In this document: piece after piece, positions 1 through 7,192 of the stretch
Layout of the letters: each line of letters opens with the position of its first letter
How positions within the stretch are numbered: position 1 is the stretch's first letter
Assembly (NCBI GenBank): GCA_000961805.1
Contig: LADV01000250.1
Coordinates: 1-7,192 of the forward strand
Reading direction: 5' to 3'
DNA from: Peptococcaceae bacterium BRH_c23
GTDB lineage: Bacteria; Bacillota_B; Desulfitobacteriia; Desulfitobacteriales; Desulfitobacteriaceae
DNA length: 7,192 bases
Position numbers and translations under genes: made by a program
The notes under the pieces: model-generated
Told to the model about the DNA's origin: nothing
The model's database searches: none
The model's input: only the letters and a program-made list of their open reading frames with translations

Positions 1-37
1 TTGTCTGCGTCCAGTAAACCTTATACTTTTTGTTCAC
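1..37 (-). CDS. RelE/ParE-family toxin, copy 1 (5' end only, cut by window edge)
   Basis: Only the first 12 codons lie in the window; the gene runs off the left edge. The bases are identical to the start of the complete toxin gene at 5254-5547, which sits in an exact repeat of this block, so the product is inferred from that copy. The start is taken as GTG at 37 because GAGGTG stands 7 nt upstream. The in-frame TTG at 43 is almost on top of that ribosome binding site. The start overlaps the end of the antitoxin gene by 17 nt, as in copy 2, which implies coupled translation. Whether this copy is intact beyond the window cannot be seen. Confidence 0.7.
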   Translation of the reverse strand, partial: MNKKYKVYWTQT

Positions 38-311
38 GCTCAAACACCTCAGTTTTTTTGCGCAAATAGTCTAGGCCTGCCTGCTGTTCAAACACTCTAT
101 CAGATTTCCGATCATCGCGGCTTTGCTGAATTTGATGAAATAAATTAGCATCTTCAGCTAAAGATTTGATGTCTAAGCTATCAACGATCTGCTCTTCAAT
201 CCAAACGTTGACATCAAATTCATCTTCAATGACTTGAATAAGGTCGGATATATCCAGCATTTCCTTGTGTTTGAATTTATCAAATAGCTGATTTGGTGTA
301 ATGTACTTCAA
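21..311 (-). CDS. Putative antitoxin of type II TA operon, copy 1
   Basis: A small acidic protein of about 96 residues encoded immediately before, and overlapping, a RelE/ParE-like toxin. Position and size give the antitoxin call; I do not recognise the family from sequence. The N-terminal half has an acidic helix-rich stretch (DISDLIQVIEDEFDV). The C-terminal third is highly charged (QQSRDDRKSD, then LDYLRKKTEVFEREQKV), the kind of flexible tail that often wraps a toxin. The start is placed at TTG 311, because AAGGAAGGTGA lies 5 nt upstream. A GTG at 320 is in frame but lies within that ribosome binding site. Against copy 2 (5531-5821), seven bases and four residues differ: F/Y, Q/R, N/T and H/Q. 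If functional, it should neutralise the toxin and probably repress its own promoter at 337-365; both are inferred from TA systems generally. Confidence 0.65.
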   Translation of the reverse strand: MKYITPNQLFDKFKHKEMLDISDLIQVIEDEFDVNVWIEEQIVDSLDIKSLAEDANLFHQIQQSRDDRKSDRVFEQQAGLDYLRKKTEVFEREQKV

Positions 312-336
312 GAAAATCACCTTCCTTTACATTAAC

Positions 337-365
337 ATTATACAGTAAGAGGAAAGCTATTTCAC
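337..365 (-). promoter_or_regulatory. Sigma-70-type promoter of TA operon, copy 1
   Basis: Reading the minus strand, a perfect TATAAT (337-342) is preceded by GTGAAA (360-365, four of six matches to TTGACA) with a 17-bp spacer. It lies 26 nt upstream of the proposed antitoxin start at 311. The same bases are conserved unchanged in copy 2 (5847-5875). The repeat module begins only about 12 bp farther upstream, so repeat and promoter are adjacent. Confidence 0.65.
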
Positions 366-392
366 GTAAAATCTTTGCTCGGGTCGGAAAAT

Positions 393-494
393 GGGACCGG
401 TGCCTAATGGGACCGGTGCCTGACACCAACTTATAACTTATCAACTTATTGTTTAGCTTGTGAAAAGTATACTCGCCTCGCTCCGGGCTTGGTA
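393..494 (+). repeat. REP-like module A (GGTGCCTGACACC family)
   Basis: The head GGGACCGGTGCCT occurs twice in tandem (393-405 and 409-421). The second is complete with the imperfect palindrome GGTGCCTGACACC (415-427), whose GGTG/CACC arms can pair around a 5-nt loop. The tail follows: ACTTATTGTTTAGCTTGTGA, then TATACTCGCCTCGCTCCGGG and a terminal GGTAG. It is preceded by GCTCGGGTCGGAAAA (377-391). Modules B (1795), D (4537) and E (5903) have the same order. No coding sequence is involved. Confidence 0.85.
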
Positions 495-507
495 GGGGAC
501 TGGTTAG

Positions 508-560
508 TGCGACACGTTTCTAGGTCTACTCGCCGGAACGGTTCCCGGTGGTCCCCGTTC
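508..560 (+). other. Possible group II intron 5' end fragment, copy 1
   Basis: The sequence opens GTGCGACACG, which fits the GUGYG start consensus of group II introns. It continues with a GC-rich, hairpin-forming stretch (CTACTCGCCGGAACGGTTCC) reminiscent of the beginning of intron domain I. Homology to the second copy (6018) stops at 560, so at most about 50 bases remain here. No reverse transcriptase gene or domain V is visible. The call rests on recalled resemblance and needs a covariance search. Confidence 0.25.
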
Positions 561-587
561 CAGAAAGGGCCCTGGAACTTTTGTTTT
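557..587 (+). terminator. Candidate Rho-independent terminator at end of duplicated block
   Basis: GTTCCAG (557-563) pairs with CTGGAAC (572-578) around an 8-nt loop and is followed by TTTTGTTTT. The left arm is the last few bases of the duplicated block and the right arm is unique sequence, so the structure formed at the junction. No gene obviously reads into it from the left on this strand, so a chance hairpin is possible. Confidence 0.35.
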
Positions 588-637
588 CCTGGAAAATTCG
601 GCAATACTTAACGTAACATCACTTATAGGACTCAATT

Positions 638-657
638 CGAGCATGAAGTAATGCTCG
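638..657. repeat. Small perfect hairpin
   Basis: CGAGCAT (638-644) and ATGCTCG (651-657) are perfect inverted repeats around a 6-nt loop (GAAGTA). It lies in the gene-free stretch before the Rpn gene, 22 nt before a pair of larger hairpins. There is no T-tract, so it is not a typical terminator. Confidence 0.5.
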
Positions 658-678
658 CGCTAACCGTCATACAATTCT

Positions 679-724
679 GAAGAATACCTGGAGGCCTGTT
701 TAACAGGCATTCCAGGTATTCTTC
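679..724. repeat. Long two-part hairpin upstream of the Rpn gene
   Basis: A 14-bp perfect outer stem, GAAGAATACCTGGA (679-692) with TCCAGGTATTCTTC (711-724), encloses an inner stem, GCCTGT (694-699) with ACAGGC (703-708). Only 1-2 unpaired bases separate the two. The structure is nearly continuous over 46 bases and could extrude as a cruciform or fold in RNA. A second perfect hairpin starts at the next base (725). It resembles miniature-element or attachment-site DNA more than a terminator, because no T-tract follows. Confidence 0.75.
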
Positions 725-753
725 AATGTGACACAAGAAGATTGTGTCACATT
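725..753. repeat. Second perfect hairpin, abutting the first
   Basis: AATGTGACACAA (725-736) and TTGTGTCACATT (742-753) form a perfect 12-bp stem with a 5-nt loop (GAAGA). It directly abuts the hairpin ending at 724 and lies about 110 bases before the Rpn start codon. A TGTGAC/GTCACA dyad is a common form for regulator operators, so an operator for the nuclease gene is possible, but no regulator is identified. Confidence 0.7.
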
Positions 754-860
754 AAGAAAGAGAGTCAATATTTTAGCTGATGATGAAAGAAGAGGTGGAA
801 TAATCACTCTGCCAATGGTAAAATATAACTAAATAAAATATGGGGAAGGAATGAAAAATT

Positions 861-1742
861 ATGGCTATAAAAAAGCTCGTGCGATTTGACTGGGCTATGA
901 AATATATACTGCGTAACAAGGCTAATTTTGATGTACTTGAAGCGTTTATTTCCAACTTGTTAAGAGAAACAATCGTTATAGAAAATATTTTAGAAAGCGA
1001 AAGTAATCGAGAAGCTGAAAATAGAAAATTTAACCGGGTTGACTTAAAGTGCAAAGATTCACAAGGGAAACAAATTATTATTGAAATACAAAACCAACGA
1101 GAGGCAGATTACCTTCAACGATTGCTTTGGGGTACGTCAAAGGCAGTTGTGGAAGGTTTGGAGCTGGGGAAGGGCTATAGCGAAGTTGTGAAAGTTATAT
1201 CTATCAGTATTCTGTATCATACCATGCGAGTGGATGAAAAAGAGAACACGGATTTTATATATTATGGTACAACAGAGCTGATTGGGCTTCATACGAAAAA
1301 ACCGCTTATTCTGCACGAATCTAAAGCGAAACAGATAGAAACACCTGTCGTTACCAGCAAAAATGTATTTCCAGAATACTACATGATTTATGTTGAAAAA
1401 TTTGAAGATATGATAAATGAGGCTATTGACGAATGGGTATATTTCTTCAAGCATGGTGCAATACGTGAGGACTTTAAGTCACCAGGAATCCTGCTGGCGG
1501 CTAAGAAGCTGGACTATCTAATGATGAGCGAGGAAGAACGACGGGGATATGACGACTATCTTGCTTACCTAGGGCAGGAGTTGGGGATATTAGAAACTGC
1601 AAAAGAAGAAGGCAGAGAAGAAGGCAGAGTACTGACAGCCAAGGCGGCTTTAAAGAAAGGGTTAGAGGTCGAACTCATCGCAGAAATAACTGGACTCCCT
1701 CTAGAAGAGATCCTGAAATTGCAAAGCGATATCATTCCCTGA
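861..1742 (+). CDS. rpn: Rpn-family recombination-promoting nuclease / putative transposase (PD-(D/E)XK)
   Basis: A 293-residue protein of the Rpn / PDDEXK_2 family, usually annotated as a PD-(D/E)XK nuclease family transposase. Members characterised in E. coli (RpnA) are DNA endonucleases that raise RecA-independent recombination. The N-terminus has the family-typical RFDWAMKYIL (8-17). The nuclease core is visible as D61 in FNRVDLKC followed by IIIEIQNQ, giving E75 and Q77 (E-x-Q motif). The centre (about 80-240) carries the conserved YLQRLLWG and YTxYVEKFED-like segments. The C-terminus (about 245-261) has the EEGREEGR low-complexity stretch often seen in the family, then a short predicted helical end. 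Length is normal and no frameshift is seen. AAGGA (846-850) stands 10 nt before the ATG. No terminal inverted repeats or partner gene accompany it; tandem hairpins lie upstream and repeat modules begin 53 bases downstream. Confidence 0.88.
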   Translation: MAIKKLVRFDWAMKYILRNKANFDVLEAFISNLLRETIVIENILESESNREAENRKFNRVDLKCKDSQGKQIIIEIQNQREADYLQRLLWGTSKAVVEGLELGKGYSEVVKVISISILYHTMRVDEKENTDFIYYGTTELIGLHTKKPLILHESKAKQIETPVVTSKNVFPEYYMIYVEKFEDMINEAIDEWVYFFKHGAIREDFKSPGILLAAKKLDYLMMSEEERRGYDDYLAYLGQELGILETAKEEGREEGRVLTAKAALKKGLEVELIAEITGLPLEEILKLQSDIIP

Positions 1743-1794
1743 TCGACCGGGGGACCGGTGTTGCGCCAGCAGGAGCTTCCCGATAGGGTCAAAA

Positions 1795-1903
1795 GGGAAC
1801 CCGGTGCCTGACACCAACTAAGGGAACCCGGTGCCTGACACCAACTTATCAACTTATTGTTTAGCTTGTGAAAAGTATACTCGCCTCGCTCCGGGCTCGG
1901 TAG
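1795..1903 (+). repeat. REP-like module B with tandem 27-nt heads
   Basis: Two 27-nt units (1795-1821 and 1822-1848), beginning GGGAACCCGGTGCC and differing by one base near the end, lie head to tail. Each carries GGTGCCTGACACC (1803-1815 and 1830-1842). The common tail follows (ATCAACTTATTGTTTAGC, then TATACTCGCCTCGCTCCGGG and GGTAG at 1899-1903). It starts shortly after the Rpn stop codon, preceded by a degraded GGGGGACCGGTG (1749-1760). Open frames crossing it are artefacts of the GC-rich repeat. Confidence 0.85.
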
Positions 1904-1904
1904 T

Positions 1905-1970
1905 GCTCGGGTCGGAAAAGGCCTTCGAAGTTCGTCTTCGGGGGTCGTCTTTTCCTCCCCAAGGGGACTG
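1905..1970 (+). repeat. GCTCGGGTCGGAAAA module, first full copy
   Basis: Begins GCTCGGGTCGGAAAA (1905-1919) and continues through GGCCTTCGAAG, CGTCTTCGGGGGTCG and TTTTCCTCCCC to AAGGGGACTG. The copy at 6073-6138 matches it with only a few differences. It contains short self-pairing stretches: CGAAG with CTTCG, and TCCCC with GGGGA around two bases. Bare GCTCGGGTC starts also occur at 377, 4646 and 5887. It may be a fragment of the intron-like RNA described at 6018-6469. Confidence 0.75.
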
Positions 1971-1977
1971 TGCGTTG

Positions 1978-2004
1978 CGGAACCCGGTGCCTGACACCAA
2001 CTTA
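1978..2004 (+). repeat. REP-like module C (head only)
   Basis: A single head, GGAACCCGGTGCCTGACACC (1979-1998), with core GGTGCCTGACACC at 1986-1998, followed by AACTTATT. The rest of the family tail is missing. After it, unrelated sequence (TTCGCCGGTTCAGGGCGC) runs to about 2040. Confidence 0.8.
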
Positions 2005-2043
2005 TTATTCGCCGGTTCAGGGCGCTTTGCCAAGGGTCGCTGA

Positions 2044-2188
2044 TCTGCTACAGGAGCCCCGTTCTCAATGTCGTAAACTTAATATGTAATAAAAAGGGAA
2101 TGACAAAAAAGTAAAAATATTTTCTGGAATAATTACAATAAATATAAAAATGCACTTGACAAGTGCTGACTATCCCCATAATCGAATT
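2044..2188. other. AT-rich gene-free stretch before the IS4 transposase
   Basis: Strongly AT-rich, in contrast to the GC-rich repeat mosaic before it. It contains one short dyad, GCACTT (2152-2157) with AAGTGC (2161-2166) around GAC. TTGACA at 2156-2161 could serve as a -35 box; a -10 such as TACCAT (2192-2197), 30 bp downstream, is too far away, so no promoter is called. No RNA gene was recognised. Confidence 0.4.
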
Positions 2189-3515
2189 GGATACCATTAT
2201 TTGGTATATCAATTTGAGATGGGTGACGCCGATGAAAAGAAATGGGTTATTCCTAGAATGTAGCCGACTTATTTATGAAATTATTGAAAACTACGAGTAT
2301 CTTATTAGTGTAAGAAAAGAACCCAACGATTTTTCGAGGATGGGGAAAATGGGATTTAAGAATATGATCTTGTTTATTTTGAATTTTTCAAGAAAGAGTT
2401 TACAGGCTGAATTGAATTCTTTTTTCAAGAACATTCACGGAACAACCGATGGGGTAAGAAAGCAAGCCTTTTCTCAAGGACGACAAAAGATATTACCTGA
2501 AGCATTTATTATTCTTCATGAAGAGCTGATTAAGACGGTGTACACTGCAACCGATCTGAAGTTGTACAAAGGATACAGACTTTGCGCAATTGATGGATCA
2601 ACACTTGAACTACAAAATACTGAAGAATTGAGAAACGTGTTTGGTTATGCGGAAAATGGAAAGGTAGAAATAGCAAGGGCCAGGATATCCGGCCTTTATG
2701 ATGTAGAAAATAACATCATGATCGATGCGATTATCGACAATTATAAATCGTCAGAGAGAGCCCTCGCCATCAGACATGTAGGAAAGCTTAAAAACTATGG
2801 CTTGCAAAACGATCTGATCCTGTTTGATAGAGGCTATCAGTCAAAGGAGCTTATTGCAAAGTTGATTGACAATGACCTTCATTTCGTGATGAGGTGTACC
2901 CTAAATTTTTTAAAGAAAGTTAATAATGTGAAGGGAAGCGACGAAGAGATTACATTTAGACATTCGGGTTACGATTATACAATTAGAGTGCTGAAATTTG
3001 CTCTTGATGACGGTACGATAGAGACGTTAGTCACGAATGTGTTTGATAAAAGCTTTACTGTAGCTGATTTTAAAGTCTTATATTTTAAGAGATGGGGCAT
3101 CGAAATAAAATATGATGAACTGAAACAAAGGCTTCAACTTGAAAATTTTGATGGTGTAAAAGAAATAGCCGTTCTGCAAGATTTCTATGCCACCATATTT
3201 TTGGCGAATATGACTGCGTTAGCAAAAATACAATCCGATGAAATCATACAAGAAAAGCATGAAGAAAAAGAATTAAAATACACCTATAAAACGAATGTAA
3301 ATATTATGGTGAGTGAATTAAAAGACGAATTGGTCCTTATCATGATGGAAAAAAACGAAAAGAAACGTAAACGTAGGTATAATAAACTATTGCAGGAAAT
3401 TGCGAGAAACGTTATTCCCATAAGACCTGATAGGCACAATGAGCGTAACTTTAAAACTACCAGAGACAGATATCCAATGAATGCAAGGCGAGGTTTGTAA
3501 TAATTAATAGTAGCC
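2189..3515 (+). mobile_element. IS4-family insertion sequence, ends provisional
   Basis: The intact IS4-type transposase shows that an insertion sequence is present. The ends proposed here rest on a weak imperfect inverted repeat: GGATACCATTATTT (2189-2202), and on the complementary strand GGCTACTATTAATT (3515-3502), 11 of 14 matching. No target-site duplication is obvious next to them. An alternative pair, TTCTCAAT (2062-2069) and ATTGAGAA (3612-3619), would give a 1.56-kb element closer to the usual family length, but matches over only 8 bases. The element is certain, its boundaries are not. Confidence 0.4.
2232..3500 (+). CDS. IS4-family DDE transposase
   Basis: A full-length transposase of 422 residues that would cut and rejoin DNA at the ends of its own element. 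All catalytic signatures are visible: D121 in AIDGSTLEL, D199 in LFDRGYQS, and E291 within the YREK motif. That motif is Y284-x2-R287-x3-E291-x6-K298 in YFKRWGIEIKYDELKQR and is diagnostic of the IS4 family. The N-terminal 100 residues form the helical, basic DNA-binding part typical of the family, and the C-terminus is lysine/arginine rich (KKRKRR at 357-362). The start is set at ATG 2232, where the product takes its family form (MKRNGLFLEC) and GGGTGA sits 5 nt upstream. A longer in-frame GTG start at 2163 adds 23 unconserved residues. No frameshift or stop interrupts it. Confidence 0.93.
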   Translation: MKRNGLFLECSRLIYEIIENYEYLISVRKEPNDFSRMGKMGFKNMILFILNFSRKSLQAELNSFFKNIHGTTDGVRKQAFSQGRQKILPEAFIILHEELIKTVYTATDLKLYKGYRLCAIDGSTLELQNTEELRNVFGYAENGKVEIARARISGLYDVENNIMIDAIIDNYKSSERALAIRHVGKLKNYGLQNDLILFDRGYQSKELIAKLIDNDLHFVMRCTLNFLKKVNNVKGSDEEITFRHSGYDYTIRVLKFALDDGTIETLVTNVFDKSFTVADFKVLYFKRWGIEIKYDELKQRLQLENFDGVKEIAVLQDFYATIFLANMTALAKIQSDEIIQEKHEEKELKYTYKTNVNIMVSELKDELVLIMMEKNEKKRKRRYNKLLQEIARNVIPIRPDRHNERNFKTTRDRYPMNARRGL

Positions 3516-3580
3516 TTGATTCCCGTGAAAAATTATACCTACATTAATAAACCCTGATTTTACAGGCATTTTGGTGGTTT

Positions 3581-3605
3581 TGCAGGTATAAAAATTATAC
3601 CTGCA
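3581..3605. repeat. Perfect 11-bp hairpin with TATACCTGCA arms
   Basis: TGCAGGTATAA (3581-3591) and TTATACCTGCA (3595-3605) are perfect inverted repeats around AAA, 81 bases after the IS4 transposase stop. The arms belong to the same sequence family as TTATACCTAC at 3532. It has no proper T-tract after it, so it is scored as a repeat and not as a terminator. Confidence 0.75.
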
Positions 3606-3657
3606 AATTGAATTGAGAATCATTATTTTTGTTGACTATTCAGGTACTCAGTTTATC

Positions 3658-3929
3658 AACCACAGATTACACAGATTACACAGATTACACAGAATAAATA
3701 CATTTTTACATTTTGGCTCTAAACTATAAATCGCTTGTAACTCAATTGATATTCGCCAAAGCTGATAAAAGGCCGGTTTAATCCTGTAGCATTGAGATAA
3801 TTGATAATTATCACTTCTTCAATGACTCCCCATCTTCGCCATTTTTCTATACTTAATCCTTCTTAATCTGTGAAATCTGTGTTAATCTGTGGTTTCTCTT
3901 ATCGTTCCTTTCATGTGTAATCTGTGGTT
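3658..3929. repeat. Inverted CACAGATTA array pair
   Basis: The left arm (3658-3692) is AACCACAGATTA continuing as 9-nt units CACAGATTA (3661, 3670, 3679) plus a partial unit. The right arm (3864-3894) is the inverse, TAATCTGTG, AAATCTGTG and TTAATCTGTGGTTT, with an additional TGTGTAATCTGTGGTT at 3914-3929. About 170 bases separate the arms. They contain a nested dyad, CATTGA (3790-3795) with TCAATG (3819-3824) around GATAATT/AATTATC (3796-3812). The pair could form a long cruciform, or be a miniature inverted-repeat element. No protein is encoded. Confidence 0.8.
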
Positions 3930-4014
3930 CCCCATTCAGAATTCCCCAAGGCGTATTTACAGTGTTTCTCCTTGTAGGTATAAAAAAATGCGGAATTTTA
4001 GGTAGTAGGTATAA

Positions 4015-4148
4015 CGAAAATCATAAATTGAGATGGCGGTGATAGAACTCAAAAACTATCTGGTATTGGTTGGTAACTTATTGAAAAATTTGCGCCTTAT
4101 AAGGCTTATTTGAGTGTATGGTTTTTTCGTCAACCTATTATTTTACAA
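4015..4148. other. Gene-free stretch with a 12-bp perfect palindrome
   Basis: Between the TAGGTATAA repeats and the IS3 remnant, the only clear structure is the uninterrupted palindrome GCCTTATAAGGC (4094-4105). It is flanked by AT-rich DNA. It could bind a dimeric protein but no partner is evident. Confidence 0.45.
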
Positions 4149-4373
4149 TTAAGTTCTGATTTCCCTTAATAGATATATGGTAATTAATTGGTATATTAAA
4201 TTGATGACATTGGCCCCGTTCTTACACCAGCGTTGCAATGTTCGTACGGATATACCAATTTCTTCACAAGCCAGCTGTTGACGTGCTCCGCTTGCTACGG
4301 CTATTTCTACCAGCTTAATAATTATGTCGCGATTCACAGTGCTGGTTAGGCTTCCTCGTCCTTTGGTCCCCAA
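4149..4373 (-). pseudogene. IS3-family transposase orfB fragment
   Basis: Translating from TTG 4373, residues about 10-53 (NRDIIIKLVEIAVASGARQQ, then EEIGISVRTLQRW) match the N-terminal helix-turn-helix of the IS3-type orfB proteins that carry such a domain before the integrase core. After RWCKNG the sequence departs from the family (about 4211) and ends in a short unrelated tail. The whole rve integrase domain with its DDE residues is therefore missing. It overlaps the end of orfA by 28 nt in another frame, the arrangement IS3 elements use for programmed frameshifting. It is a decayed 5' fragment. Confidence 0.6.
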
Positions 4374-4540
4374 ATCGCATTGATGTTTTTTCTTAGAACT
4401 AACAAGGCTGCCGTTTCAGCGAGTGCTGACTCTTTTCGCTGAAGTTCCTTCTTAACTCGCTTTAGTTCCTTTTCAGTTTCTTTTTCTCGCCGTTGTGAAG
4501 TGGCTAGTTCCTGAGCAACACCGCCGTTAGCCTGAAGGAA
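4346..4540 (-). pseudogene. IS3-family orfA fragment (coiled-coil C-terminus)
   Basis: This reading frame encodes a charged coiled coil (REKETEKELKRVKKELQRKE) followed by LAETAALLVLRKNINAIWGP and a stop. That order closely resembles the C-terminal half of orfA-type proteins preceding HTH-rve orfB genes in IS3-family elements. The N-terminal helix-turn-helix is missing. At about 4537-4540 the sequence switches to a REP-like module, so the open frame upstream (to 4558) is repeat DNA and its apparent start is accidental. The orfA and orfB fragments together represent about 330 bases of one dead element. Confidence 0.6.
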
Positions 4541-4660
4541 CCCGGTGCCTGACACCAACTTATTAGGGGACCGGTGCCTGACACCAACTTATCTGACACC
4601 AACTTATCAACTTATTGTTTAGCTTGTGAAAAGGTGGGGACAGGTGCTCGGGTCAGAAAA
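4537..4660 (+). repeat. REP-like module D with three tandem partial heads
   Basis: It has GGAACCCGGTGCCTGACACC (core 4544-4556), a second GGGACCGGTGCCTGACACC (core 4573-4585), then a third partial unit CTGACACCAACTTAT (4593-4607). The common tail (CAACTTATTGTTTAGCTTGT) follows to about 4632. It passes into GCTCGGGTCAGAAAAGG (4646-4662) without the CTCGCCTCGCTCC segment seen in modules A, B and E. Its left edge truncates an IS3 orfA remnant. Confidence 0.85.
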
Positions 4661-4853
4661 GGCTGAATATTTCGGTGCGGTAGAACGGCAATCCAAATTC
4701 GTCACGAATTTGACCTACACCCAGGCGGGGCATACTTCTTGGGATCCCTATCGGTGACTGCTCCACACAGTAGTTAAGAAAATCAGTAAGACAACCGTTT
4801 AATTTATCGGTTGTCCTTGCAGTAAATAAGTGTATGTTATTGAAAAATGTGCT
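4653..4853 (-). pseudogene. Possible decayed coding fragment of unknown family
   Basis: The minus strand is open for 66 codons between stops at 4854-4859 and 4653-4655. The translation looks protein-like (TDKLNGCLTDFLNYC, later GQIRDEFGLPFYRTEIF), but no start codon with a ribosome binding site is present. The C-terminal stop is supplied by the GCTCGGGTCAGAAAA repeat. I do not recognise the family. The perfect palindrome AAATTCGT-C-ACGAATTT (4695-4711) lies inside, so the open frame could be accidental. Confidence 0.25.
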
Positions 4854-4910
4854 TTATCAGTAGGAAAACGGTAGTGAAGGTCGAATACTGTATTAGTATT
4901 TTCAGTGTAG

Positions 4911-4996
4911 GGTGCCTGACATTAATTATCTGAATAATTGGATAATTGTTTAGCGCTAAATATTGTAACATGTCAATATTGTTGGTGGGGGTTGTG
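4911..4996 (+). repeat. Diverged REP-like element directly upstream of the RAYT remnant
   Basis: GGTGCCTGACATT (4911-4923) matches the family core in its first 11 bases. It is followed by AATTATCTGAATAATTGG and then ATAATTGTTTAGCGC, which parallels the family tail ACTTATTGTTTAGCTTG. It is the only copy with this level of divergence and the only one next to a Y1 transposase gene start, which lies within 75 bases of the core. Confidence 0.6.
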
Positions 4997-5167
4997 ATGG
5001 GTAGAAGACCAAGAGCAAAATTTAAGGGAGCAATCTTCCATGTAATAAAGAGAGGAAACACTAGAGAGTACATATTTAGAGCAGAAGAAGATAAAGAATA
5101 TTTTTTGACGTATTTAGAAGATGCTAACACAGATGGAGTTTTTAATCTGAATCCCTTCAGGGGTTGA
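4997..5167 (+). pseudogene. REP-associated tyrosine transposase (RAYT, Y1_Tnp) N-terminal remnant
   Basis: The first 40 or so residues (MGRRPRAKFKGAIFHVIKRG, then FRAEEDKEYFLTYLEDA) match the canonical opening of RAYT / Y1_Tnp proteins: M-x-R-x-P-R, then A-x-x-H-V-x-x-R-G-N, then a F-R-x-x-x-D segment. After EDA (about 5130) the sequence leaves the family and meets a stop at 5165-5167. The HUH histidine pair (usually in a NHxHLL motif) and the catalytic tyrosine are missing, out of a normal length of roughly 200-300 residues. It cannot be active. The family single-strand-cleaves REP hairpins, which makes the repeat at 4911 and its relatives likely former substrates. Confidence 0.78.
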
Positions 5168-5189
5168 CTATGTAACTTAATGTGGTTGA

Positions 5190-5253
5190 GTTACATTCAA
5201 GGTAAGGTACAAGAAAACCTCCTGATAGTTTAGGAGGCTTTGCAGAATGTAAC
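5190..5253. repeat. 9-bp inverted repeat flanking the TA terminator
   Basis: GTTACATTC (5190-5198) and GAATGTAAC (5245-5253) are perfect inverted repeats that bracket the terminator hairpin at 5213-5238. The right arm abuts the toxin stop codon. ATGTAACTTA also occurs directly at 5170-5179 and 5248-5257. They may extend the terminator fold or mark an old insertion edge. Confidence 0.45.
5213..5238 (-). terminator. Rho-independent terminator of the TA operon, copy 2
   Basis: On the minus strand, GCCTCCT pairs with AGGAGG around an 8-nt loop (arms at 5232-5237 and 5218-5223) and is followed by TTTTC. It begins 16 nt after the toxin stop codon, which is where the transcript of antitoxin and toxin should end. 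Confidence 0.75.
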
Positions 5254-5547
5254 TTATATTCTTTTCCAATATATATTTTGACGCTTATGTTTAATGCCAT
5301 CAACCCAAATGACTGCATTCAGTTCATCGACATCAAATATAAGTATAACTTGATAGAGTCCAAGTCTTGCCCAATAACCTTCCAGCTTTCCGTATGGAAT
5401 TTGCTTGGCAGTAAGGGTTGGAGTATGAGTTAACCGAGTAAAAGAATCATTGAAAATGCGTTCCTTAACTGCGGGGGGATAAGCTAACATGTTTGCCAGT
5501 TCATTTAAACTTGTCTGCGTCCAGTAAACCTTATACTTTTTGTTCAC
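5254..5547 (-). CDS. RelE/ParE-family toxin of type II TA system, copy 2 (complete)
   Basis: A 97-residue basic protein with the fold pattern of the RelE/ParE superfamily. It has an N-terminal strand (KYKVYWTQ, 4-11), two helices (about 12-39) and then strands with the typical order of K/R-rich core and tail: KLEGYWARLGLYQVILIFD (54-72) and NAVIWVDGIKHKRQNIYW (77-94). R61 and the H87-K88-R89 segment occupy positions where RelE-like toxins carry their basic active-site or terminal motif. Members either cleave mRNA on the ribosome or poison gyrase, and sequence alone does not tell which. GTG 5547 is chosen because GAGGTG lies 7 nt upstream; TTG 5553 lies too close to it. The gene overlaps the antitoxin by 17 nt and is followed by a terminator. 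Confidence 0.85.
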   Translation of the reverse strand: MNKKYKVYWTQTSLNELANMLAYPPAVKERIFNDSFTRLTHTPTLTAKQIPYGKLEGYWARLGLYQVILIFDVDELNAVIWVDGIKHKRQNIYWKRI

Positions 5548-5821
5548 GCTCAAACACCTCAGTTTTTTTGCGCAAATAGTCTAGGCCTGCCTGCTGTTCA
5601 AACACTCTATCAGATTTCCGATCATCGCGGCTTTGCTGAATTTGTTGAAATAAAGTAGCATCTTCAGCTAAAGATTTGATGTCTAAGCTATCAACGATTT
5701 GCTCTTCAATCCAAACGTTGACATCAAATTCATCTTCAATGACTCGAATAAGGTCGGATATATCCAGCATTTCCTTGTGCTTAAATTTATCATATAGCTG
5801 ATTTGGTGTAATGTACTTCAA
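5531..5821 (-). CDS. Putative antitoxin of type II TA operon, copy 2
   Basis: The first gene of a complete two-gene operon: promoter 5847-5875, this gene, overlapping toxin 5254-5547, terminator 5213-5238. It is 96 residues from TTG 5821 (AAGGAAGGTGA is 5 nt upstream; GTG 5830 lies inside that site). It is acidic with a charged tail (LDYLRKKTEVFEREQKV). Sequence family is not recognised, so the role comes from gene order, size and overlap. Compared with copy 1, it differs by Y for F, R for Q, T for N and Q for H at residues 10, 26, 56 and 59 of the TTG-start protein. The C-terminal third, the part most likely to touch the toxin, is unchanged between copies, so cross-neutralisation is likely (inference). 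Confidence 0.72.
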   Translation of the reverse strand: MKYITPNQLYDKFKHKEMLDISDLIRVIEDEFDVNVWIEEQIVDSLDIKSLAEDATLFQQIQQSRDDRKSDRVFEQQAGLDYLRKKTEVFEREQKV

Positions 5822-5846
5822 GAAAATCACCTTCCTTTACATTAAC

Positions 5847-5875
5847 ATTATACAGTAAGAGGAAAGCTATTTCAC
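5847..5875 (-). promoter_or_regulatory. Promoter of the TA operon, copy 2
   Basis: Perfect TATAAT (5847-5852) and GTGAAA (5870-5875) spaced by 17 bp on the minus strand, identical to copy 1. It drives transcription toward the antitoxin start at 5821. Confidence 0.68.
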
Positions 5876-5902
5876 GTAAAATCTTTGCTCGGGTCGGAAA
5901 AT

Positions 5903-6004
5903 GGGACCGGTGCCTAATGGGACCGGTGCCTGACACCAACTTATAACTTATCAACTTATTGTTTAGCTTGTGAAAACTATACTCACCTCACTCCGGGCTC
6001 GGTA
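5903..6004 (+). repeat. REP-like module E
   Basis: Same order as module A: tandem GGGACCGGTGCCT (5903-5915 and 5919-5931), core GGTGCCTGACACC (5925-5937), the tail ACTTATTGTTTAGCTTGTGA, then TATACTCACCTCACTCCGGG and GGTAG. It differs from A by G-to-A or G-to-C changes in the tail and C for T before GGTAG. It is preceded by GCTCGGGTCGGAAAA (5887-5901). Confidence 0.85.
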
Positions 6005-6017
6005 GGGGACTGGTTGG

Positions 6018-6469
6018 TGCGACACGTTTCTGGGTCTACTCGCTGGAACGGTTCCCGGTGGGCCCCGTTCATGCTCGGGTCGGAAAAGGCCTTCGAAGAT
6101 CGTCTTCGGGGGTCATCTTTTCCTCCCGAAGGGGACTGGTATTGCGTCAGGATAAGTCTGGTAAAGGGGAATGCCGGTGGGCTGAAACCTTTAGAAGGAA
6201 CCTAGCAGGGAGGAAGTGACCTGCCCGGTAAAGTCTGGTCAACAGCCGGAAGCGAGTCTTGCATATTAGGAAGCGATTCCTGGTGTGAAGCGTAGACAGC
6301 AAGTGCAAAAGCTGTGTGATTGAGCCTCGAAAACCCTTTTCGTTGGAGCTTTCGTTTTTACCAGGTCGAGAGCAGTACAAGGGTACCTTATAGACCTAGT
6401 GCCATTGTCCGACCGGGGTCGAAGAGCAGAGCAAATGCACAAGAGGTTCCCCAGGAACCTGAGAGAAAC
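6018..6469 (+). other. Structured noncoding segment, possible truncated group II intron domain I
   Basis: This 450-base stretch has no credible gene. It opens with GTGCGACACG (GUGYG-type intron start) and contains several compact hairpins. AGGAA-GCGA-TTCCT (6268-6281) has a GNRA tetraloop, CGAAAA-CCC-TTTTCG lies at 6328-6342, and AGGTTCC-CCA-GGAACCT at 6444-6460. Phrases such as GAACCTAGCAGG and CCGGAAGCGAG recall group II intron domain I, but I cannot verify this without a covariance model. The GCTCGGG module lies inside it (6073-6138). It ends where the IS66 element appears to begin, so the rest of any intron (reverse transcriptase, domains V-VI) would have been displaced or lost. Short open frames on either strand here are artefacts. 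Confidence 0.3.
6073..6138 (+). repeat. GCTCGGGTCGGAAAA module, second full copy
   Basis: Close copy of 1905-1970: GCTCGGGTCGGAAAAGGCC, then TTCGAAGATCGTCTTCGGGG and TTTTCCTCCCGAAGGGGACT. In module B it follows GGTAG directly. Here it follows 66 bases of the GTGCGACACG segment, so either that segment was deleted in the 1905 copy or the modules recombine. Confidence 0.75.
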
Positions 6470-6552: not shown

Positions 6553-6858
6553 ATGACTCACGAAGAGCAGTCCATCATCAGACGCCAGCAGATAAACGAT
6601 TACCGTGCATCTGGCCAGACCGCTGCCGCATGGAGCTCAGAAAACAACCTAAGTATCAATACACTCCGGTACTGGTTGACCAAATGCAACCGCGAAGAGA
6701 TAGCTGACCCTCAGCAGGAAAGCTTTATCGAATTGAAGCAGACATCCATTAAGGAAGTTCCGGTTATTGTTAAGATCGGAGCTGTTTCCATAGAGCTGTA
6801 TTCTGGCTTTCAAGTGGAGACTCTGCGCGAGGCTATTGCTACTATTCGTTCCATATGA
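6553..6858 (+). CDS. tnpA: IS66-family accessory protein TnpA
   Basis: A 101-residue protein of the IS66 OrfA/TnpA family, needed with TnpB for transposition by TnpC but not itself the catalytic transposase. Residues 13-45 (QINDYRASGQTAAAWSSENN then TLRYWLTK) form the helix-turn-helix region typical of the family, recognisable by the SGQTAAAW and LRYW motifs. The C-terminal part (about 58-101) contains the conserved FIELK, then VKIGAVSIELYSGF and LREAIATI segments. Length is normal. It has a strong ribosome binding site (GAGGAGG), partly hidden in a hairpin, and its stop overlaps the tnpB start as ATGA. Confidence 0.92.
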   Translation: MTHEEQSIIRRQQINDYRASGQTAAAWSSENNLSINTLRYWLTKCNREEIADPQQESFIELKQTSIKEVPVIVKIGAVSIELYSGFQVETLREAIATIRSI

Positions 6859-7192
6859 GCATAAACGCTGCCGGCCTCAAAATATTTCTTTCATGCAAGC
6901 CCTGCGATATGCGGAAAAGCATCGAAGGTCTTGCGACATTAGTGCAAACGCAACTTCAAATGGATCCATTTGAAAAGTGTCTCTACGTGTTCTGCAACCG
7001 AAACTGTGACAAATGTAAAATTCTTCATTGGTCAAATAACGGTTGGTGGTTGTATTATCGAAAACTGAGTCAAGGAGTCTTCCGATGGAAGTTTCACGAA
7101 AACAAACTAGTCCTTGAGGTTTCCGAACAGCAGTTTAGGTGGCTTTTGGATGGTTTATCTATGGATCAGCCATCGGCACACAAACCAGTTAA
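6855..7192 (+). CDS. tnpB: IS66-family accessory protein TnpB (3' end cut by window edge)
   Basis: Starts at ATG 6855, overlapping the tnpA stop by 4 nt (ATGA), which implies translational coupling. The 112 codons present are open. The family motifs are clear: KPCDMRKSIEGLATLVQ (15-31), DPFEKCLYVFCNRNCDKCKIL (37-57) and GWWLYYRKLSQGVFRW (63-78). IS66 TnpB proteins are usually about 115-120 residues, so only a few codons are missing at the right edge. Its biochemical role in IS66 transposition is poorly known. It is unrelated to the RNA-guided TnpB of IS200/IS605. The cysteines in CNRNCDKC (47-54) are more numerous than I would expect at this site in the family. Confidence 0.92.
   Translation, partial: MSINAAGLKIFLSCKPCDMRKSIEGLATLVQTQLQMDPFEKCLYVFCNRNCDKCKILHWSNNGWWLYYRKLSQGVFRWKFHENKLVLEVSEQQFRWLLDGLSMDQPSAHKPV

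Follow-up and report, generated by a model that had tools for sequence, protein, structure and literature searches.

The 7,192-base stretch of DNA analysed here (the window), from Peptococcaceae bacterium BRH_c23, holds two copies of a block that contains the antitoxin gene of a putative toxin–antitoxin (TA) operon, its promoter region, a short GGTGCCTGACACC repeat module (module A) and the beginning of another repeat, repeat D. An initial annotation had described the block as a composite unit that carries operon and module together. The two copies, at 1–560 and 5511–6070 on the plus strand, were compared without gaps and differed at 15 of 560 positions (545 identical, 97.3%), in agreement with the match of about 97% first described. 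Copy 1 starts at window base 1 and runs off the left edge, which is probably the contig end, and its left end lies outside the window. On the other side, the identity between the copies, counted per 20 bases, drops from 19 to 7 at 561, an abrupt change at 560/6070.

The mismatches are unevenly distributed, as had also been noted. Seven fall in the antitoxin gene and eight in the repeat tail (467–552), and none lies in 284–466, which includes the antitoxin start, the promoter region and module A; the copies are likewise identical over 1–134. If mismatches were placed uniformly, the probability of a gap of at least 183 bases would be P = 0.038, and that of two gaps, of ≥183 and ≥134 bases, together P = 0.0006. 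Either constraint or gene conversion could be the cause of the clustering. The copies were compared with the Desulfosporosinus genome G017, which has the one intact antitoxin gene found among 45 genomes of the family (two others, G004 and G008, carry remnants with stops). At the seven antitoxin mismatches, G017 agrees three times with copy 1, three times with copy 2 and once with neither; thus, neither copy is simply ancestral. The distance to G017 is the same for both, with 292 of 372 positions identical in each case.

The TA genes lie on the minus strand. Antitoxin 1 (21–311) has a TTG start codon at 311–309 in a frame that is open from 320, and its relatives are 96 residues long; antitoxin 2 (5531–5821) was delineated by its open reading frame and protein relatives, and toxin 2 (5254–5553) by its relatives, an AlphaFold2 model and PDB matches. 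The antitoxin 2 gene comes first and overlaps that of toxin 2 by 23 bases. The order is identical in G017, to whose operon the stretch 5204–5884 is homologous with 80% DNA identity. A protein search with the toxin gave 83 candidates, 82 of them relatives at E ≤ 0.001, the best of which (85% identical) came from Paradesulfitobacterium; some are named RelE or RelE/ParE by their sources. No Pfam, NCBIfam or PADLOC model named the toxin in model scans, and two of the scanned relatives matched ParE_toxin weakly, below the cut-off. In the PDB, matches by sequence only were weak (3g5o, E 0.25; 1wmi, E 0.29). The AlphaFold2 model (mean predicted local distance difference test score 80.3, predicted template modelling score 0.72) places the toxin in a RelE-type fold: all nine chains that matched it at E ≤ 0.001 were RelE or YoeB toxins, with the RelE structures 3g5o, 9g12 and 2khe as the best matches. 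This predicted fold bears out the two-gene TA operon of the initial annotation. With its small, overlapping gene pair and leading antitoxin, the operon resembles type II TA operons of the RelE/ParE superfamily, but both proteins fall below every Pfam and NCBIfam cut-off, and none of the families named in those libraries includes the antitoxin. The pair is a putative TA system, recognised by its genes, in which the toxin would be expected to be toxic.

Antitoxin searches found 26 relatives, 17 of them at least 94% identical over at least 97% of the length, or over a form shortened at the N terminus; P0018, at 88% identity, comes from a Desulfosporosinus metagenome-assembled genome. The antitoxin of copy 2, which served as the query, has 64% protein identity to that of G017. 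Pattern-matching stretches in genome_contigs (29) and viral_contigs (105) included no relative of the antitoxin. The window had no megablast match among plasmids and phages, and the toxin had no tblastn match among plasmids. The combination of TA operon and module A was absent from the 45 family genomes, and the block was not found by DNA in 29 Desulfosporosinus-genus genomes, where up to 16 candidates per genome were scored.

Repeats and the 560/6070 limit

Repeat D is about 83 bp long and is whole in copy 1 (527–609, plus strand), where it spans the limit at 560. It has four whole matches in G017, which are all the matches found there, and D is unbroken in each across the position equivalent to 560. 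These lie on the same strand within 4.7 kb around the TA operon and, equally oriented, flank it on either side. In copy 2, sequence comparison finds only the left 34 bases of D (6037–6070, plus strand), beside repeat B (6072–6141, plus strand), a hairpin element of about 70 bp whose fold gave z = −4.3 against shuffles. The 5′ end of B, TGCTCGGG or close variants of it, stays constant behind 18 different upstream sequences, a count limited to alignments whose start falls in the first three bases of B. Since D is whole in copy 1 and in G017, and the exact 5′ end of B stands at the limit, the limit at 560/6070 is best read as the point at which B was inserted into copy 2, and not as the end of a unit. 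The two sharp limits at one end, with the left end lying outside, were correctly observed, but they do not mark the end of a unit. Nor do the 50 bases of the block that had been called intron-like belong to an intron, for 527–560 is the left part of D.

The intron lies behind B. It is a group II intron, visible in its 5′ part only (6142–6469, plus strand) and cut near 6469; it matches Rfam model RF02005 at 6213–6428 with 127 bits and starts near 6140–6142, the sequence from 6140 on being common to two other loci, L074 and L076. IS66-type TnpA and TnpB genes, recognised by model matches, occupy 6553–7190 on the plus strand and were probably inserted within the intron; the window ends before the position of TnpC.

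As had been reported, a repeat module adjoins the TA operon: module A is present in both copies (409–466, with a 12-base partial copy at 393–404, and, by sequence comparison, 5919–5976). Between the TA promoter and module A of copy 1 lies a 16-base piece of the 5′ end of B (376–391, plus strand), and comparison places the corresponding piece of copy 2 at 5886–5901. In G017 the operon runs directly into D, with neither the B piece nor module A. Three further copies of module A, starting at 1803, 1830 and 1986, are found within 1803–2000 and are adjoined by another copy of B (1904–1970, plus strand). Two more (4544 and 4573, within 4544–4633) mark the end of a minus-strand remnant of an IS3-like transposase (4149–4558), in which module A copies have taken the place of the 5′ end. 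All seven module A motifs in the window have one orientation, on the plus strand.

A search of genome_contigs for the exact 20-mer GGTGCCTGACACCAACTTAT gave 67 stretches, whose titles name Desulfosporosinus, Pelotomaculum, Syntrophomonas, Acetobacterium and others, and the exact 13-mer was found in 12 of the 29 Desulfosporosinus-genus genomes (reversed control, 0/29). At least two exact 13-mers were present in 17 of the 67 loci, all of them in the same orientation in 16 of the 17. The antitoxin was encoded in none of the 67, a toxin remnant was present in one (L045), and eight had a match to a REP-associated tyrosine transposase (RAYT; REP, repetitive extragenic palindromic). Because the operon lacks module A in G017 and no module A locus encodes the antitoxin, TA operon and module are separable. 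The module A 22-mer did not occur in viral_contigs, and literature matches to the printed motif included none on bacterial repeats, judged by their titles. Integron attC sites have the frame RYYYAAC/GTTRRRY; none was seen in module A in a check made by eye only, with no search.

Duplication history and alternative explanations

We favour, with a probability of about 0.6, a local duplication in an accessory region rich in transposase repeats, in an uncultured Desulfosporosinus-like bacterium, accompanied by nested insertions, rather than a self-moving TA unit. The history would have started from a Desulfosporosinus-like chromosome, the presumed host, with a RelE-type TA operon and repeat D beside its promoter. 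First B and next module A, in this history a terminal repeat of a RAYT or of a TIR-associated tyrosine transposase (TIRYT; TIR, terminal inverted repeat), would have been inserted between operon and D. As the 16-base piece of B and module A lie between promoter and D in both copies alike, and neither is found in G017, both insertions precede the duplication. The stretch would then have been duplicated, most likely through recombination between dispersed repeats. Afterwards, copy 2 only would have received a second B into D, the group II intron behind B, and the IS66-type genes into the intron. The nesting and its order are shown by the sequences themselves, when the insertions common to both copies are set against those private to one, and on this comparison the second B, the intron and the IS66 genes are later than the duplication.

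In favour of this history are the unbroken course of D past the limit in copy 1 and in G017, the exact start of B at the limit in copy 2, the G017 operon without B or module A, and the A-type repeats beside RAYT genes and ahead of the window's own RAYT remnant (see below). TA and RAYT sequences also meet elsewhere: in G017 a RAYT and the four copies of D are neighbours of the operon, and in L045 the toxin remnant lies near module A and a RAYT remnant.

Several points weigh against it. The recombination junctions would lie outside the window on the left and behind the intron and IS66 genes on the right, and past copy 2 the window showed no right half of D. Recombination between repeats is only one of several routes to a duplication. 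The co-occurrence of TA and RAYT rests on three loci, and the antitoxin is 36% different in protein from that of G017.

An unlikely alternative is that the assembly joined strain or paralogue variants at the contig end, which would make all of copy 1, or just its left ≈134 bases, chimeric. The contig ends inside the repeat, over whose first 134 bases the copies are identical. The haplotype of copy 1, FQNH-K, is represented in the close set only by P0011 and P0012, which the protein search placed on one contig each, the longest of 7192 bases (the window is thus probably an entire contig), and by the fragment P0021, which is without site 13; FQNH-E and YRTQ-K are commoner. K88, typical of the other haplotype, sits within the 134 identical bases at the contig end, which makes a chimera at the left end possible. 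However, copy 1 has its own right flank, 15 differences and a whole D past 560. A second locus is therefore needed anyway, and doubt attaches only to its left end and to whether it sits on one molecule with copy 2.

Somewhat less probable still is that two separately acquired TA operons were homogenised by gene conversion. The clustered mismatches and the equal distance of the copies from G017 agree with this, as do the 6 of 10 site pairs in which all four combinations were present among 22 close antitoxin rows (the divergent rows P0017, P0018, P0022, P0024, P0025 and P0026 were left out). However, such pairs fit gene conversion, strain recombination or false metagenome joins, and false recombinants are possible in metagenome assemblies. 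Moreover, the B piece and module A are nested at the same bases in both copies, which is unlike separate acquisition unless conversion covered all of it.

Least probable is the composite mobile unit of the initial annotation, in which TA operon and repeat module insert as one and bracket accessory DNA: the same combination does occur twice, 5.5 kb apart, and it agrees with the near-identical antitoxins on many metagenome contigs (P0003 on 10, the longest of 116,099 bases; P0004 on 13; P0005 on one of 41,478 bases) and with the D repeats that flank the G017 operon, but the common right limit is best read as a B insertion in the D of one copy, operon and module each occur without the other, no such block was found in the family genomes or among the candidates scored in the genus, and viral contigs gave no antitoxin relative.

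The local duplication preferred here shows that a sharp repeat limit can pass for a mobile unit's end, and the analysis provides a layered insertion history that is open to checking by long reads. A duplication of this kind is nothing unusual in a repeat-rich accessory region, and the transposase family of module A is the more interesting lead.

The presence of mobile genes between the copies was confirmed. Model matches identify an IS4 family transposase (2163–3500) and, ahead of it, an Rpn/PDDEXK_2 family gene (861–1742), both on the plus strand. A near-perfect, terminator-like palindrome of 48 bases (678–725) lies ahead of the Rpn gene, and short CACAGATTA repeats with an inverted counterpart are found downstream of the IS4 gene (3661–3698 and 3853–3891).

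Module A and tyrosine transposases

Beside copy 2 lies a REP-type tyrosine transposase (RAYT/TIRYT) reduced to an N-terminal remnant (4997–5150, plus strand), with an A-like terminal repeat (4911–4923, plus strand) 86 bases ahead of its start codon. The remnant was recognised by its DNA similarity to RAYT genes, which are present in L045, L005, L039, L030 and L066. To avoid choosing loci by module A, RAYTs were sampled by protein alone from 398 Bacillota genomes. This search gave ten loci in seven genomes, at 39–48% identity by tblastn (41–49% in the search table), and nine of the ten had an A-like motif with at most two mismatches within 170 bases, compared to 53 of 2000 random window pairs and 0/10 for the reversed motif. 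Two of the ten, L133 and L139, are near-identical copies in one genome (G164); in one of these the RAYT is followed by ComM, and in the other only by the first codons of ComM and then by unrelated repeats. At the RAYT loci the A-like motif is followed by AACTTATTAACTTATT-like bases, matching the window. The motif is inverted on the two sides of the RAYT in L132, L136 and L141, and the remaining loci are mostly one-sided; in L153 and L198 it is found on both sides in direct orientation. (RAYTs at ≥62% identity in G442, G011, G443 and G444 are associated with module A, and were not used because these genomes had been reached through module A.) More distant RAYTs had a match with at most two mismatches in only 2 of 29 whole loci. 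The corresponding figure for Desulfosporosinus RAYTs, 0/25, is weak on the 3′ side, where the matches cover part of the gene, and the whole-locus count is the better of the two. Judged by these sequences, module A resembles the terminal repeats of a RAYT/TIRYT subgroup, and a transposase of this kind may act on it.

Di Nocera et al. (2013; PMC3733652) described TIRtrons, elements with TIRYTs, and reported a GGGGWSAS motif for part of the TIRs. TIRtrons and module A share the position of the repeat next to a RAYT-like tyrosine transposase gene, its inversion on the two sides (for module A in L132, L136 and L141) and scattered solo copies. In contrast to these, GGGGWSAS was not seen in module A, module A loci with several exact motifs are almost always one-directional (the 16 of 17 given above), and the main text of that paper contains none of the strings Clostridi-, Desulfo-, Pelotomaculum and Syntrophomonas. 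With the REP, bacterial interspersed mosaic element (BIME) and REPtron sequences of Nunvar et al. (2010; PMC2817692), as described there, module A shares its extragenic, dispersed and RAYT-linked character. As a canonical REP it was nevertheless rejected: it lacks the GT[AG]G head, forms no hairpin beyond that of shuffles (z = −0.16), and never exceeds 11 exact motifs in any of 29 genomes. The RAYTs found here, of about 280 residues with a C-terminal extension past the Y1 core, resemble TnpA-REP subclass 2.1, which is linked to TIRYTs in PMC6006769, and we tentatively place them there. The same source reports that no REP-like sequences were found near subclass 2.1 genes.

A RAYT–ComM–DprA trio

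A RAYT followed by a second-type ComM (YifB) and then by DprA was found in G017, in G034 and on one Pelotomaculum contig. Trios of this kind lie at L198:9764–13882, L142:9063–12791 and L101:4916–8873, apart from the housekeeping ComM, and repeats A, B or D are found near one or both of their ends. The Pelotomaculum trio proteins scored above the NCBIfam cut-offs, and the G017 RAYT scored just under (77.0 vs. 80). Among the 398 genomes there were 16 ComM matches at E ≤ 1e-150, five of them with at least 63% identity. DprA closely follows all five, and a RAYT precedes four; the contig of the fifth begins 97 bases ahead of ComM. Among the remaining 11 (47–51%), none had a RAYT within 1.5 kb, and five had DprA farther off. 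In the Desulfosporosinus genus, 4 of 28 ComM matches were of the trio type. A RAYT precedes three of these, and the fourth contig starts inside ComM; none was present beside the five inspected of the remaining 24. The trio thus recurs in Bacillota and is flanked by A, B or D repeats in some cases.

N-terminal RAYT stubs of 70 and 78 residues run directly into DprA sequence at L045:4926–5871 and L201:3762–4865. Stubs of the same kind without DprA are found in the window (4997–5150) and at L101:12817–13023. The trio DprA proteins at L198:9803–10945 and L101:4913–6031 match the NCBIfam DprA model and, in addition, ShosA models of PADLOC (best E 4.6e-55 and 2e-54, respectively). Among the texts covered by a literature search, no paper was found that joins a REP-associated tyrosine transposase or TnpAREP with dprA.

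A tentative interpretation, to which we give somewhat less than even odds, is that module A marks a Bacillota clade of transposases that move together with DprA and a second ComM (YifB) of their own as a repeat-bounded accessory unit, the decay and recombination of which build and duplicate TA-carrying regions. The N-terminal RAYT stubs, the solo repeats and the RAYT–DprA fusions would then be decay products, and ComM, DprA and RAYT would represent three genes that handle single-stranded DNA. If the linkage between module A and the trio holds, a little-studied, domesticated-looking transposase family would be tied to the proteins that load and move single-stranded DNA in natural transformation, and the role of these transposases in their hosts would become testable.

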